In this document: positions 59,047 through 64,000 of the stretch, piece by piece | Position numbering within the stretch: the stretch's first letter is position 1 | Layout: every line of letters starts with the position of its first letter | NCBI GenBank assembly: GCA_000722615.1 | Contig: JOKI01000006.1 | Coordinates: 149,557 to 213,556, forward strand | From: Pseudorhizobium pelagicum | Lineage (GTDB): Bacteria > Pseudomonadota > Alphaproteobacteria > Rhizobiales > Rhizobiaceae | Direction of reading: 5' to 3' | DNA: 64,000 nucleotides | Notes under the pieces: generated by a model | What the model was told of the DNA's origin: nothing | What the model saw: only the letters and a program-made list of their open reading frames with translations | Databases searched by the model: none | Made by a program: the position numbers and the translations under genes

Positions 59047-59113
59047 CCGCTTTGCCCGTTGCGCGAGGCGCCCAAATCGATCAGGTTCAGCCGGCACTGA
59101 TTTGGGGGTTGAA

Positions 59114-60127
59114 ATGGTCGAGCGCGAAGTTTTCGGAACAACGGCAAAGGGTGAGACCGTCTACCGAGTGAGGATCTCCGGCGGCGGACTGACGGCGCAT
59201 GTCATGACCTGGGGGGCGGTTATCCAGGATCTGCGGCTCGCGGGCCACCAGCCGCCGCTCGTCCTCGGCTTCGATGCTTTCGATGACTATCCGAAGTATT
59301 CGTCCTATTTCGGCGCGACGCCCGGGCGCTGCGCCAACCGAATCACCGAGGGCCGGTTCGAACTGGACGGCAAGGCCTACCAGCTGGAGCTCAACGAGAA
59401 GGGCGTCACCCATCTCCACGGCGGCAGCGACGGCATGGCGAAGCGCAACTGGGAGATCGTCGATCTCGCCGACGACCGGGTGGTGTTGCAGATCGTCGAT
59501 CCCGACGGCCGCGCCGGCTATCCCGGCAACTGCACGGTGACGGCAACCTATCACCTGCACGGCGAGGGCGTGCTGACGGTGCTCTACGAATCGAGCACCG
59601 ACCAGCCGACGCCCTGCAACATCTGCCAGCACACCTATTTCAACCTCGACGGCCGCGACACGGCGCTCGGCCACGACATCATGATCGCGGCGGACGAGAT
59701 TACCGCCGTCGACGACCGGCAGTGCCCGACGGGTACGCTCCTGCCGGTGGCGTCCACCGCCTTCGACCTGCGCGAAATGGGGCCGATGGACAGGGAGGAG
59801 AACGGTGCGCGGGTGCTGTTCGACCACAATTTCTGCCTCTCGACCGAGAGGGTGGAGAAGCGCTCCGTCGCGCTTGCCCGCAGCACCTATTCCGGCGTCT
59901 CGCTGGAGGTGCGCACCACGGAGCCGGGCGTGCAGTTCTATTCCGGCTACAAGCTCGACGTGAAGGTGCCGGGCCACGACGGACGCCACTACGGCCCCTT
60001 CGCCGGCTTCTGCCTGGAGACGCAGATCTGGCCCGACGCCATCAACCACAGCGATTTCCCCGAGGCGGTCCTGCGCCCCGGCGACGTGCTGCGGCAGGAA
60101 ACGGACTACTGCTTCTCGAAGAGCTGA
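59114..60127 (+). CDS. galM: Aldose 1-epimerase (galactose mutarotase)
   Basis: 337 aa from the ATG at 59114; the GGGGG just upstream is a weak ribosome-binding site. It interconverts alpha and beta anomers of aldoses. Family landmarks: the N-terminal MTWGAVIQDL, GATPGRCANRI (active-site Arg region), VTHLHGG (His), the second His in CQHTYFNL, and the catalytic Glu in the GFCLETQ segment. The gene is chromosomal; the tRNA-derived island boundary lies about 105 bases after its stop. Confidence 0.9.
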   Translation: MVEREVFGTTAKGETVYRVRISGGGLTAHVMTWGAVIQDLRLAGHQPPLVLGFDAFDDYPKYSSYFGATPGRCANRITEGRFELDGKAYQLELNEKGVTHLHGGSDGMAKRNWEIVDLADDRVVLQIVDPDGRAGYPGNCTVTATYHLHGEGVLTVLYESSTDQPTPCNICQHTYFNLDGRDTALGHDIMIAADEITAVDDRQCPTGTLLPVASTAFDLREMGPMDREENGARVLFDHNFCLSTERVEKRSVALARSTYSGVSLEVRTTEPGVQFYSGYKLDVKVPGHDGRHYGPFAGFCLETQIWPDAINHSDFPEAVLRPGDVLRQETDYCFSKS

Positions 60128-60232
60128 AGACTTTTTTTGCAACCGCGCGCCCGGCGAAGGCTGGGCGCCGGTCATGCACAGGAGCCGCGTCTATGGCGAC
60201 GCTTTGGCTTATAGATACAACCTGGGAGAAAA

Positions 60233-60284
60233 TGGAGCGGGTGAAGCGATTCGAACGCTCGACCCCAACCTTGGCAAGGTTGTG
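60233..60284 (-). other. Displaced 3' part of tRNA-Gly(GCC), attL of the island
   Basis: On the minus strand this reads as the 3' part of tRNA-Gly: anticodon arm CAACC-TTGCCAA-GGTTG (anticodon GCC), variable loop GGGTC, T arm GAGCG-TTCGAAT-CGCTT, acceptor strand CACCCGC, T and encoded CCA. The D arm and 5' acceptor strand expected at 60285-60310 are absent; the sequence there is unrelated. This is what remains when an element integrates inside a tRNA gene; the intact copy should be at the far end of the element. Confidence 0.85.
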
Positions 60285-60430
60285 ACCTTTGGTTTCTGTC
60301 GGTTGGCGAAGGTTCATGATCATCCCTATAGTCCTTGATTTTCAGCGCTAATACGGGGTACTTAGGTATATCGTGTTATGCAGGGGTTCATGAGAATGGT
60401 GCTGCCCCTGTGCTGCCCAAGGTTCTCGAT

Positions 60431-61678
60431 ATGCTTTCCAAAGTCAAGCTGACAGATGTTGTCGTCTCCCGCGCTGAGCTTCCCGCGGGCAAGGCAGAGC
60501 ATATGATCTGGGACACGGACGTCTCAGGGTTCGGCCTGCGGCTGAGGGGCGAGACGAAGTCCTACATCATTGCCTACCGCCCTGCCGGGCAGGGGCGCGC
60601 GGCCAATATGAAGCGCGTGAAGATCGGCTCTCCGGAGACCATTAAAACAGCAGCGGATGCCCGAAAGATTGCCTTCTCCATGCTGGGTAAGGTGGCCGCA
60701 GGAGGAGACCCTGCGAAGGATCGAGCAGAGGAGAAGCGTCGCGCAAAGTCTCGCGTGGCCGATCTCCTGGACCGCTACGAAGAAGATCTTACCCGGCGCA
60801 ACTATGTTGCCAAAGACATGGTCATGAGCCTCCTGAGGCGCCGGCTCAAGAAGCACGCCGAGCGGGATATCAAGGAGCTCAAGGGCGCCGACTACGCGGC
60901 CGTGATCGAGGGGCTGGAGCGGAAGGGGCTTCCTGGCGCCGCTGAAGAGTTTCGATCCCGCTGCCGAGCCTTTCTCGCCTTCTGTATGACGAAGGCGAAG
61001 GTCATCGACGCGAACCCCCTTTATGGCTTCAGACGCCAGCGGGCGACTAGGGCTGACCGCCTGGCGAAGCAGGAACACGGGCGTGCACTCTCGGACGTCG
61101 AACTGGCATCCGTCTGGCTTGCGGCGTCTCCTGCTACCGTCTTCGGCAGGTTTGTCCGGTTTCTCATCCTGACGGGCTGCAGGCGCGGGGAGGGCGCCGG
61201 CGTGACCAGGAAGATGGTCGATCGGAGCGACCGCGCCCGGCCGGTGATCGACTTCCCAGCCGCATTCGTGAAGCAGGGACGCGGGCATAAGGTCACCATC
61301 ACGGAGGAGTTGGACGACCTCCTGGCGCTGTGCCCGGTCCAAGGGACGCTGGACCTGTTCTTCCCTTCGAACCGCACCGGCGGGCCGATGAGCGGCTGGA
61401 ACAAGATGACTGCAGCGCTGGTCAAAGAAAGCGGCGTGCAGTTCACGTTCCACGATTTGCGGCGAACCTTCCGCACCGGTCTCTCGCGGTTGGGCGTCGA
61501 CACGGAAACCGCCGAGCTTGCGTTGGGGCACGCACGCGAGCATCTGATCGAGATTTATGACCGCCGCGAAGGATCGGAGAAGGTGCACGAGGCGTTCAGA
61601 CTGTGGTCGGCTCACGTCACAACTACCGTTCACGACGAGCAGGCGAAGCGAGCCGAAAAGGTAGGTATCTTCGGCTAG
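60431..61678 (+). CDS. int: Tyrosine recombinase / phage-type integrase
   Basis: 415 aa from the ATG at 60431; an upstream in-frame TTG at 60335 would add 32 residues. N-terminal arm-binding domain of the DUF4102 type (about 1-90, DVSGFGLRLRG and KIGSPETIKTAADARK), a core-binding helical domain (about 105-205) and the catalytic domain with the full set of residues: R251 (TGCRRGE), K281, H341 and R344 (HDLRR), H367 (LGH) and nucleophile Y376 (IYDRR). It lies 147 bases from the attL tRNA fragment. It should integrate and, with an excisionase, excise the island. All catalytic residues are intact, so it may be active. Confidence 0.93.
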   Translation: MLSKVKLTDVVVSRAELPAGKAEHMIWDTDVSGFGLRLRGETKSYIIAYRPAGQGRAANMKRVKIGSPETIKTAADARKIAFSMLGKVAAGGDPAKDRAEEKRRAKSRVADLLDRYEEDLTRRNYVAKDMVMSLLRRRLKKHAERDIKELKGADYAAVIEGLERKGLPGAAEEFRSRCRAFLAFCMTKAKVIDANPLYGFRRQRATRADRLAKQEHGRALSDVELASVWLAASPATVFGRFVRFLILTGCRRGEGAGVTRKMVDRSDRARPVIDFPAAFVKQGRGHKVTITEELDDLLALCPVQGTLDLFFPSNRTGGPMSGWNKMTAALVKESGVQFTFHDLRRTFRTGLSRLGVDTETAELALGHAREHLIEIYDRREGSEKVHEAFRLWSAHVTTTVHDEQAKRAEKVGIFG

Positions 61679-61689
61679 TTACACCTCGC

Positions 61690-61722
61690 CCGTATGGCAC
61701 CCGTATGGCACCTGTATGTCAT
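61690..61722. repeat. Tandem 11-bp repeats after the integrase gene
   Basis: CCGTATGGCAC twice (61690-61700, 61701-61711) and a degenerate third copy CTGTATGTCAT (61712-61722). Period 11 is about one helical turn, typical of arm-type or excisionase binding sites. They begin 12 bases after the integrase stop. Confidence 0.6.
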
Positions 61723-61807
61723 AAGTCATTGTATTTGTTGATGGTAAATGAAGGTATGCGTTGACTCTTTGCGGTTTTGGTGGCAGGATCAATCTGCCGC
61801 GCTCTTG

Positions 61808-61837
61808 CATCGCTTCCATTGCTGACATCGCTTCCAT
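61808..61837. repeat. Direct repeat, 2 x CATCGCTTCCAT, period 18
   Basis: Identical 12-base units at 61808-61819 and 61826-61837, about 50 bases upstream of the AlpA-like gene start. Possible operator for one of the two HTH proteins of the island. Confidence 0.5.
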
Positions 61838-61884
61838 CTTAAGCGGCTCCCCTGAACCAGGTCTTGAACCAAGTGGAGGTCGCG

Positions 61885-62154
61885 ATGCGTCACGCCCCTG
61901 TGCAATCCTATGCCAATCGAGAAGAAGCACCCAATCTGCGAGCCATGCCCGCTGATGCGTTGCTCAGCCGCCGGGAACTCAGCGCCCTTTCCGGCTATGC
62001 CATCATCACCCTGAAAATCTGGGCGGCGAACAACCGCGGACCTCGGATCACCCGCGTCGAGGGACGGCCCCGCTACCGCGTCGAGGACGTTCGCGAGTGG
62101 ATAGGTTTGTCCCCGTCTGCCAAGCCTGAATTCACGCAGGGGATTTTCGCATGA
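61885..62154 (+). CDS. AlpA-like / MerR-type helix-turn-helix protein
   Basis: 89 aa from the ATG at 61885 with GTGGAGGT just upstream; a TTG 21 bases earlier is in frame but less likely. The HTH region is about 27-80: LLSRRELSALSGYAIITLKIWAAN, then GPRITRVEGRPRYRVEDVREWI, the usual pattern of excisionase/AlpA family proteins (recognition helix followed by a wing with a Arg-Tyr-x-x-x-D-V block). In prophages and satellites AlpA-type proteins activate integrase or excision genes. The next gene overlaps its stop by four bases (ATGA). Confidence 0.75.
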   Translation: MRHAPVQSYANREEAPNLRAMPADALLSRRELSALSGYAIITLKIWAANNRGPRITRVEGRPRYRVEDVREWIGLSPSAKPEFTQGIFA

Positions 62155-63158
62155 CCGGCACCCCCACCAAGTCGAGAGTGGAGTTCGTCCGGTTGACGTC
62201 TCCCGACGAGCGCTCGCTGCTCGCATTCAAGTGCTGGCTTCGAGAGGCCTGTCAGACGATCCAGACGCGCCGTCTGACCTACGCGCCTCTGTCGAAACAG
62301 GCTGCAAGAGAAGTGGCAGCCGCCGCCAAGCGCCCGGCCGACCGGTCAACGAGTTCCATCATCCGCTATATGGACGTGAGGAACCAACGTGAGCGGCAGC
62401 GGTACGAGCTTCGCGCTCGCGCATACCTCGAAGCGATCGCTCCTGCTGCCCTGGATCTGCCGGGGGCATCCCCGTTGATCGATACGATTGCTGAGTTGTC
62501 AGCTACGAATGAATCTCTCAGGCAGATAATCCTCACAACATTCGATGCCACCCGCCCCAGAAGCCAGAAGGTCCGACGGGATGGTGATGATTGGCGTCCC
62601 AGCCGACAGACGGTCACCAAAACCACGATGGGCACCCTCGTCAGTCTTGCGGAACGCGCATCAGCATTTGCCGACACCGCGCACCACCTGAGTGAAGGAC
62701 TGCCAGAGCGGGATGGAAAGCGTGAACACGGCATCAGAAGCGATCACGTGGAGGATGCCATTTACCGGTTCGCCTGCGACAATTTTCGTTTCATACCGTC
62801 GGCGGCAATGATGGGCACTTTGGCCGTTCTCGGACGCGAGGAGATGATCGCAGACCAGCTTTGGGCGAAGGTGCTGAGCGCCAGCAAGCCCCGACCAGTC
62901 ACTTTCACGCTTATAGAGCAACTGTTCGATGAGGGCGTGCTCCTTGATTGGGCGGCCGATCTCGAAGAAACGACGGATCTCCCCTCAGACGCTCAGGTCT
63001 TCGCAGCCTATCAGGTGGTCCTGACGATGACGATCCGGCGGCTGAAGGTCGAGCAAAAGAAGCTGACGGGCAGCGGACCCCCGAAAAAGTCTCGTGAAAC
63101 CCGCCTAGTTTCCCGAAGCGCCGCGGTGGATGCTTCAGGTCCACGGAAGGAGACCTGA
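62151..63158 (+). CDS. Unrecognised island protein, 335 aa
   Basis: Start ATG at 62151 overlaps the AlpA-like stop, so translation is coupled. No known family was recognised. The first 125 residues are basic and helical (REACQTIQTRRLTYAPLSKQAAREVAAAAKR, given here only as a region; key feature is the many Arg/Lys). A linker near 128-150 (RPRSQKVRRDGDDWRPSR) is strongly basic. Residues about 155-310 look all-helical with a hydrophobic stretch IPSAAMMGTLAVLGREE. The C-terminal 35 residues are basic and low in structure. No signal peptide or membrane helix. Position between two HTH proteins and a primase-like gene suggests nucleic-acid binding, regulation or replication initiation; this is inference. 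Confidence 0.7.
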   Translation: MTGTPTKSRVEFVRLTSPDERSLLAFKCWLREACQTIQTRRLTYAPLSKQAAREVAAAAKRPADRSTSSIIRYMDVRNQRERQRYELRARAYLEAIAPAALDLPGASPLIDTIAELSATNESLRQIILTTFDATRPRSQKVRRDGDDWRPSRQTVTKTTMGTLVSLAERASAFADTAHHLSEGLPERDGKREHGIRSDHVEDAIYRFACDNFRFIPSAAMMGTLAVLGREEMIADQLWAKVLSASKPRPVTFTLIEQLFDEGVLLDWAADLEETTDLPSDAQVFAAYQVVLTMTIRRLKVEQKKLTGSGPPKKSRETRLVSRSAAVDASGPRKET

Positions 63159-63161
63159 ACC

Positions 63162-63404
63162 ATGAAGATTGCTGACGCGCCCGAATATCCAAGCTTGATG
63201 ACGATCGCCGAGGCGGCGACCTTTGCTGACCGGTCGAGGTCATGGGTTCGCCGTTACCGGACTTTCGGGCCGCTGGTGCCCGACGTGCTGGACGGGCAGC
63301 AAGCTGTCACCACGAGAAGCCTGATCGCGCTCATGGCCAGCTACCAAGAGCGTCGTCCGGAGGAAACTCACAGCCATCTCCGGCTCGTCGTCGACAACAC
63401 CTGA
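63162..63404 (+). CDS. Small helix-turn-helix protein (excisionase/MerR-like)
   Basis: 80 aa, start ATG three bases after the previous stop, with GGAGA in the preceding gene's end. HTH about 12-55: LMTIAEAATFADRSRSWVRRYRTFGPLVPDVLDGQQAVTTRS, where the recognition helix is SRSWVRRYR and a winged segment follows. Proteins of this size in integrative elements are excisionases or regulators. It could act at the repeats near 61690 or 61808. Assignment between excisionase and repressor is open. Confidence 0.65.
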   Translation: MKIADAPEYPSLMTIAEAATFADRSRSWVRRYRTFGPLVPDVLDGQQAVTTRSLIALMASYQERRPEETHSHLRLVVDNT

Positions 63405-63457
63405 ATTGAAAGACCGGCCGCCACGGGAATGGCAGCCGGCCCAAAGGGATCTTCTCA

Positions 63458-64000
63458 ATGCAAACAAATGCTAGCGCAGAACCGCGGAAAACGCAAGGTT
63501 TGAGCTTTGCGGAGCAGGTTAAGCAACGCACCGGCTCCCCTTACATGCGCCAACCGCGCGCGGCCAAAGAGGCCGGCACGACGCCCGCGAAAGCCGTCGC
63601 TACGGCGACAGAACCCGCCGCTGAGAAACCCGAGGCGAAGAACACGCCTTTCGTTGCTGATGCCGAACAGCTGCGCCGTTTCGTCCAAGGCGTCTTCCGG
63701 AACTGTATCGATGGGCACGGAAAGCCGCTTACTGCGCGTTTGGTGCTGAGAGCTTTCACTCACCGCAACGATAAGTGCGTGCTGAGCGAGGAACTGGCGT
63801 TCGGCTCCGGCGTGGTTTCCGCTGCCGTCGACGCCGCCTCCAGGGTCGCAAACCGCCCGGCTGACGGTGCCGCAGTCTTCGCCCCGCCGCCATGCCTGTT
63901 CAGCCCCTTCTCGGAAAAGGCAAGACAAGCCGACATTATGGCGGCGCCGGTGATTGCGGTCGACCTGGACGAGATGGATCCCGAGGAGGGGCATCGCAAG
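63458..64000 (+). CDS. Truncated open frame with primase-like D-x-D motif (candidate replication protein)
   Basis: Open from the ATG at 63458 (AAGGGAT nine bases upstream) to the window end: 181 residues without a stop. Residues 1-65 are low-complexity (Ala/Glu/Lys/Thr-rich, probably disordered). From about 66 it is ordered: VADAEQLRRFVQGVFRNC, then a helical region. Residues 164-174 read PVIAVDLDEMD, a hydrophobic strand with D169-x-D171, the pattern of catalytic motif I of archaeo-eukaryotic primase (PrimPol/RepB-primase) domains at about this distance from the start. The other catalytic motifs lie beyond the window, so the family call is tentative. Confidence 0.55.
   Translation, partial: MQTNASAEPRKTQGLSFAEQVKQRTGSPYMRQPRAAKEAGTTPAKAVATATEPAAEKPEAKNTPFVADAEQLRRFVQGVFRNCIDGHGKPLTARLVLRAFTHRNDKCVLSEELAFGSGVVSAAVDAASRVANRPADGAAVFAPPPCLFSPFSEKARQADIMAAPVIAVDLDEMDPEEGHRK

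Follow-up and report, generated by a model that had tools for sequence, protein, structure and literature searches.

Phage satellites are usually described as using the particle of a helper phage unchanged, or as altering its capsid size or its packaging, in the accessible parts of the reports on them (PMC6092414, PMC10690885). The phage-inducible chromosomal islands (PICIs) of Gram-negative bacteria have the integrase gene at one end, an AlpA-type regulator, a primase and sometimes terS, and in the available sections of the same source they are defined without phage structural genes; induction depends on a phage, packaging is into phage particles, and their att sites are described as never being taken up by prophages (PMC6092414). 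The E. coli PICI EcCIMP1 is mobilised by Kapi1, a phage closely related to P22, and both its excision and its transfer have been demonstrated; according to the available portion of the paper, it has an integrase, AlpA and a primase/helicase, neither terminase nor capsid genes could be identified in it, and it has genes resembling DNA transfer proteins which are shared with Kapi1 and for which the authors propose a role in packaging (PMC11773190). The Pseudomonas element AH14b (16.8 kb, helper AH14a) has an integrase, AlpA, a primase and a helicase and is packed in the helper capsid; one of its genes resembles tail assembly protein I (record KU708005), and in the accessible text its authors found neither a terminase nor, in the particles, any virion protein belonging to AH14b itself (PMC4936722). 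MiniFlayer, a Streptomyces satellite, encodes its own tail fibre protein together with capsid and packaging genes, with no known primase in the part of the account available (PMC10690885). The present study concerns a 64,000-nucleotide stretch of the Pseudorhizobium pelagicum genome, called the window here (G000:C6:149557-213556, G000 being the source genome and C6 and C7 two of its contigs). With a probability of about 0.77, an integrated satellite of a short-tailed (podophage-type) phage, at least 22.3 kb long, has its left end in the window, and a helper-dependent mechanism is proposed for it.

The element and its relatives, referred to below as the satellite family, resemble the Gram-negative PICIs in having int at one end, AlpA (a candidate master regulator), a primase and a homologue of the small terminase subunit (TerS); the integrase, regulator and replication module of the PICI organisation are thus all represented. 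Size does not agree with that class, since closed elements of the family span 11.3-26.1 kb against about 12-15 kb in the accessible text on PICIs (PMC6092414), and the family further differs from PICIs in carrying ejection-type proteins and, in G000, one tail fibre. Ejection-type genes have a precedent in EcCIMP1, whose satellite nature is verified; however, going by the description available, no terminase gene was identified in it, whereas the satellite family has TerS (PMC11773190). Profiles of TerS, of the HGG protein encoded beside it and of one ejection protein type (profile C6) gave no match to AH14b (KU708005) at E up to 1. The G000 element shares an own tail fibre with MiniFlayer but has a primase, and no head genes were found in its sequenced part. 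Ejection-type genes are also shared with full phages, namely the L057/L097 phage, RHph_N65 and RHph_I1_23, and L097 has TerS in addition; the L057/L097 phage, however, encodes the large terminase (TerL) and capsid, and RHph_I1_23 portal and capsid, which the satellites lack as far as tested. An earlier, sequence-only reading of the window had singled out this locus as a candidate for an undescribed system. No description of this lineage was found in the literature on satellites with ejection, injection or pilot proteins, on rhizobial or alphaproteobacterial satellites, or on HGGxSTG, so that the lineage appears to be new, while satellites as such are a known kind.

The same reading had proposed that an element is inserted in a tRNA-Gly(GCC) gene, leaving a 52-base 3' fragment at galM. 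The fragment was confirmed at its place (Table 1), and no complete tRNA was found in the 64 kb window by ARAGORN. The intact tyrosine recombinase said to lie 147 bases away is an open frame at exactly this distance when its ATG is taken as the start. The fragment is part of a 63-base direct repeat, and its second copy, at C7:12500-12562, sits within an intact tRNA-Gly(GCC) on the minus strand (C7:12511-12585, ARAGORN). This is the repeat within a complete tRNA-Gly(GCC) that the reading had advised looking for, and it agrees with the expectation that the element runs rightward and recreates the intact tRNA at attR. Comparison with relatives, also suggested there, covered 2 of 57 genomes (G000 among the 57) and revealed the empty site in both: in the same-genus genomes G012 (L043) and G006 (L044), galM, an intact tRNA-Gly(GCC), a ybaK-like gene and trx lie in a single stretch. 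The tRNA-Gly gene is restored by the insertion, not destroyed. The att geometry and the empty site in two relatives support the original description of the locus as a phage satellite or integrative element.

The end of contig C6, at 219506, is 9.7 kb to the right of attL, and contig C7 begins 12.5 kb to the left of attR; the element thus measures at least 22.3 kb, to which the gap between the contigs has to be added. A paired 9-bp site between attL and int occurs only twice in the whole G000 assembly, at C6:209955 (window 60399) and at C7:12424-12443, the latter 57 bp inside attR, and 0.01 copies would be expected by chance in the window when up to two mismatches are allowed. As the paired site is present only at both ends of the G000 element, the C6 and C7 ends belong to one element; the distance from the fragment to its second copy, for which the earlier reading had set a bound of about 200 kb, spans the contig break. 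Exactly two copies at the element ends were also found in G231, G731, G220 and G736. G266 and G734 have a single copy; in G732 the sites are on two contigs and led to the right end of the element beside a tRNA-Thr. The genomes of G730, G735 and G737 have no paired site, and a reversed-pattern control gave none in all 11 genomes. The pattern is probably an arm-type binding site of the integrase. It also precedes two distant integrases, at L074:9917 and L083:3691, on contigs that both end soon after; hence it may be older than the satellite family.

The integrase has matches in five of the 297 Rhizobiaceae genomes, G000 included (E up to 1e-40), and, at 1e-90, in G000 alone among 397 genomes of the order. 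The genome collection yielded 21 integrase loci, ten at 47-70% identity and eleven weaker. Thirteen elements could be evaluated: G000, G220, G231, G266 (a Mesorhizobium metagenome-assembled genome, L063), G730 (Alsobacter soli), G731 (Aureimonas pseudogalii), G732 (Methylobacterium), G734 (Tranquillimonas), G735 and G736 (metagenome-assembled genomes of Rhodobacter and Rhodobacteraceae), G737 (Methylocella silvestris), L066 (Aureimonas endophytica) and L221 (a Ruegeria plasmid). Twelve were selected by integrase, and L221 was found through HGG. Nine are closed, with sizes of 11.3 (G734), 11.5 (G735), 15.2 (G266), 19.2 (G736), 20.1 (G231), 20.7 (L221), 21.7 (G730), 23.0 (G731) and 26.1 kb (G220). 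In eight of these nine, an intact tRNA gene for Gly, Thr or Pro lies at the end distal to int; in the closed G731 element the repeat was found and no tRNA was called. Integrase (by selection in 12), AlpA, resolvase and the TerS homologue are present in all 13 elements, one primase family in 12 (G000 differs) and HGG in 12 (the exception is G730). L066 and L221, found by integrase and by HGG, respectively, stood outside the building of the profiles and carry the gene set including ejection-type proteins.

Several loci were dropped from this census. The integrase of G322 is 35% identical, with only marginal matches to TerS (0.0015) and resolvase (0.002); at G322:C76 (L054/L055) a 17.9 kb element between tRNA-Thr repeats encodes large cargo-like proteins without the satellite gene set. 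The L068 contig has int and AlpA and ends 0.9 kb past int. Among the 11 loci with distant integrases (L073-L083), several of them on short contigs, AlpA is present in two, the arm pair in L074 and L083, and no other genes of the set were seen. An IMG/VR contig, L107 (IMGVR_UViG_2887773926_000001), encodes a primase, HGG, TerS and an ejection-type protein of the satellite family. It was kept out of the census since a portal-like frame, recognised by eye, lies to its left and the element boundaries were not set; integrase and AlpA of the family were not found in the stretch. Its content indicates that such elements are partly catalogued as viruses.

The TerS homologues bear on how such elements could be packaged. 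A profile of eight short forms, built without G730, matches the G730 protein (4.6e-13) and the phage TerS of L097 (3.6e-11), and hhalign aligned the short form to the C-terminal part only (probability 97.8%, E 1.3e-12). By sequence these proteins are thus homologues of the small terminase subunit, and the short forms lack the N-terminal DNA-binding region. G730 retains this region in a protein of 185 aa, which matches phrog_51 (3.1e-6) and, just under the cut-off, Pfam Terminase_2 (5.5e-5), and G730 has no HGG. In 9 of 11 measured pairs, L107 among them, an in-frame TerS start codon overlaps the HGG stop by 4 bp. The same overlap is annotated in L221, giving 10 of 12 pairs in all (the L066 pair was left out), and the nearest plausible TerS starts leave gaps of 41 bp in G266 and 16 bp in G000. 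HGG has conserved Cys and His residues and is predicted to bind zinc. It has no match in a fold search of PDB, and that of G000 has none among named phages. A related primase is also present in seven IMG/VR contig stretches, which encode TerS of 141-186 aa and, in two of them, a related TerL; HGG has no match in any of the seven. The 4-bp overlap, together with the absence of HGG from G730 with its longer TerS, suggests that HGG and truncated TerS form a two-part small terminase, an argument in which the replacement of the N-terminus by HGG rests on the one exception, G730.

Ejection proteins of short-tailed phages are needed for infectivity, according to the accessible part of one study (PMC8954989). 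Four profiles of podophage-type ejection proteins, named C6, C7, C12 and C20 (not to be confused with the contigs), match 10 of the 13 elements: profile C7 in G000 and G736, C6 and C7 in G266 and L221, C20, C6 and C7 in G231, C6 in G730, C6 and C12 in G220, G731 and L066, and C20 in G737, where a second protein matches the DNA ejection protein family phrog_26400 (8.8e-32). Two more elements, G735 and G734, have a weaker match of structural (C17) type; the LPD23-domain protein of G735 is similar to a structural protein found in Pseudomonas phages such as H66, and a homologue of it occurs in G734. In Rhizobium phage RHph_N65, profiles C20, C6 and C7 match consecutive genes, one of them annotated as 'putative injection protein'. 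The 1031-aa protein of G000 is 50% identical to a protein of IMG/VR contig L057, which also encodes TerL, capsid and a portal assigned by position, as against 27-40% to the proteins of G231, G266, G736 and L107. As the ejection protein of G000 is closer to that of a phage than to those of other elements, the module seems to have been exchanged with phages. The 1026-aa protein of G266 has only five weak N-terminal matches in IMG/VR, and the 495-aa protein of L221 has none among named phages.

Head genes were looked for in several ways. TerL, portal and capsid of L097/L057 have no match in the element frames, L221 being judged from annotation and L066 standing outside these tests. All 14 places with a match to the TerL family phrog_38 are outside the elements; the match is strong at G266:C49, at G231:C1 and in the phage record, while ten of the 11 host genomes have weak matches and G736 has none. 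The phrog_9953 capsid and the L097-type portal (assigned by position) were found in none of 11 host genomes, and the phage record itself matches. Among the larger unassigned proteins of eight closed elements, 24 (two transposases left out) match 20 PHROG families, none of which is described as head, tail or terminase. In a scan of 97 of the 99 listed element proteins (two end fragments left out), none of the 25 families considered, out of 63 matched, is described as head or large terminase, and two members matched a terminase-small-subunit family. The closed relatives thus have their own integration and replication genes and, as far as tested, no complete virion set, as expected of satellites. 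Two 40 kb stretches, G266:C49 (L098/L099) and G231:C1 (L100/L101), were considered as helpers; the satellite ejection proteins have no match in them at 1e-4 and neither is claimed. The G231:C1 region is, by eye only, a T7-like prophage, and the G266:C49 stretch has two cargo-type genes in common with the elements.

Certain observations weigh against a satellite of short-tailed phages. The G000 element is not closed, the sequence that would join C6 to C7 being absent, and its primase is not of the type usual in the family. No ejection protein was found in G732, where the element is split over contigs, and a C6-type ejection protein was not found in the G000 genome, an empty answer which shows little. 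The relevant phages are presumably short-tailed, as judged from their gene content, while their records say only Caudoviricetes. A helper of L057 type was not found in the host genomes (12 genomes, 11 for capsid and portal). Of the 20 PHROG families mentioned above, 15 have no description (five are described), and family scans could overlook head proteins that are small or not recognised. The structure model of TerS is of low confidence (predicted local distance difference test, pLDDT, 66), and in a fold search of PDB its top match, the NV1 small terminase, was not significant (E 1.6). Finally, a PF03354 large terminase over the cut-off is encoded elsewhere in G000, at C4:88128-88661, and probably belongs to a separate prophage or remnant.

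The split between contigs, and a tail fibre and an ejection-type protein such as phages have, would also be expected if the G000 element were a complete prophage with its head and packaging genes inside the assembly gap. This is improbable, because G000 has neither the phrog_9953 capsid nor the L097-type portal, its phrog_38 match is weak and partial, and the PF03354 terminase is 88 kb into another contig; moreover, HGG with truncated TerS is a mark of elements that, where closed, show no head genes. Head genes of an unrelated type could still lie in the gap. Slightly less probable still is that the elements are prophages in decay, with TerS and the ejection genes as remnants. Gene sharing with full phages, as in the seven IMG/VR contigs with related primase and full-length TerS (two with TerL), would fit decay, but the 13 elements, diverged as they are and with long open frames, have the same reduced set in common, the att repeats are kept in them and the arm sites in most, and HGG is present in 12 of 13 elements as against none of those seven stretches. 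The position of the ejection genes also varies, which argues against simple decay: they lie between AlpA and primase in the Ruegeria element (L221), unlike the others, directly after TerS in G736, and after the resolvase in the remaining elements with clear order. It is very unlikely that the element is moved by conjugation or another non-phage route. Integrase and AlpA are, as a matter of general knowledge, common to many islands, but no relaxase or conjugation family is among the families considered for closed elements (25 of 63 and 25 of 33 listed), and TerS and ejection-type proteins are virion-related.

For the satellite favoured here, the mechanism could be as follows. On growth of a helper phage the element would excise and replicate through its own primase. 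HGG with truncated TerS would steer the helper large terminase onto satellite DNA; head, portal, large terminase, tail and lysis would be borrowed from the helper; and the satellite ejection protein and fibre would be fitted into helper particles and aid the delivery of satellite DNA. The helper virion would then be rebuilt at two specificity points, the split TerS, with a translationally coupled HGG in place of its DNA-binding half, choosing the DNA that is packaged and the satellite ejection proteins and fibres setting its delivery by hybrid particles. This rebuilding is a tentative proposal, to which we give somewhat less than an even chance. A satellite could instead use truncated TerS and HGG to inhibit the TerS of the helper, and its ejection proteins to hinder the helper, without their being packaged. 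An inhibitor could well lack, as the short TerS does, the N-terminal region present in phage TerS and in G730, but the longer TerS of G730, without HGG, fits a replaced DNA-recognition part better than poisoning, although this is one case; inhibition is thus rather unlikely. A lineage with ejection genes but without head genes would make DNA delivery a step that satellites must control with short-tailed helpers, and this could account for the genes of EcCIMP1 that resemble those for DNA transfer. A two-part small terminase, if true, would be a new way of switching packaging specificity. The HGG-TerS overlap and the paired arm sites form a simple family signature with which other genomes can be screened.

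Table 1. Features at the left end of the element (window positions; gene starts from an in-house open-frame caller)
Feature	Position	Strand	Remarks
galM (aldose 1-epimerase)	59102..60127	+	Pfam Aldose_epim 8.6e-76; left chromosomal flank of the element
attL, 63-base direct repeat	60222..60284	-	98% identical to G000:C7:12500-12562
Displaced 3' part of tRNA-Gly(GCC), 52 bases	60233-60284	-	adjoins galM
Paired 9-bp site GTGCTGCCC-CT-GTGCTGCCC	60399..60418	+	between attL and int; general form GTGCTGCCC-N2-GTGCTGCCC
Tyrosine integrase, 415 aa	60431..61678	+	ATG 60431 probable start; open frame of 447 aa from TTG 60335
AlpA-like excisionase/regulator, 96 aa from TTG	61864..62154	+	phrog_66 excisionase and transcriptional regulator 3.2e-5
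335-aa protein	62151..63158	+	no Pfam or PHROG match
Small HTH-like (helix-turn-helix) protein, 80 aa	63162..63404	+	weak HTH_17, E 0.027, under the Pfam cut-off
935-aa primase-helicase, start	63458..64000	+	DUF3987 3e-48, PriCT_2 3.5e-7; continues past the window (L004:3515-6322)

The gene calls of the sequence-only reading (int, AlpA-like, an unknown, HTH and primase-like) agree with the Pfam and PHROG annotation, the HTH being weak. The integrase contains Arm-DNA-bind_3 and Phage_integrase domains (Pfam 2.1e-10 and 3.4e-10), matches the PHROG integrase family (1.2e-39) and is 53-69% identical to three family members. Named phages have remote relatives only (56 records, all below 60%, the best 29%), and a profile search of IMG/VR gave no relative. 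The G000 primase has only four weak records among named phages. On contig C6 the primase-helicase is followed by HGG, truncated TerS and a serine resolvase. The C7 side encodes the 1031-aa ejection-type protein, which has no Pfam or PHROG match and none among named phages, a 461-aa tail fibre (phrog_4398, 1e-15) and a 190-aa fibre assembly protein (phrog_3916, 2.3e-6); over 82 codons at its start, the fibre shares 51% identity with one in IMG/VR contig L141.

Cargo of the closed relatives, among 25 of the 33 families listed, includes AbiTii, KAP NTPase, a HicB-like antitoxin, SocA/Panacea, DUF4411 and an M78 peptidase, which are possible defence or toxin-antitoxin genes. Close to attR on contig C7, the G000 element has a PIN_8 protein (L005:5279-6733, 3.6e-54), an SRAP protein (L005:7879-8634, 8.2e-20) and small genes, and SRAP homologues are also present in the G231 and G220 elements.

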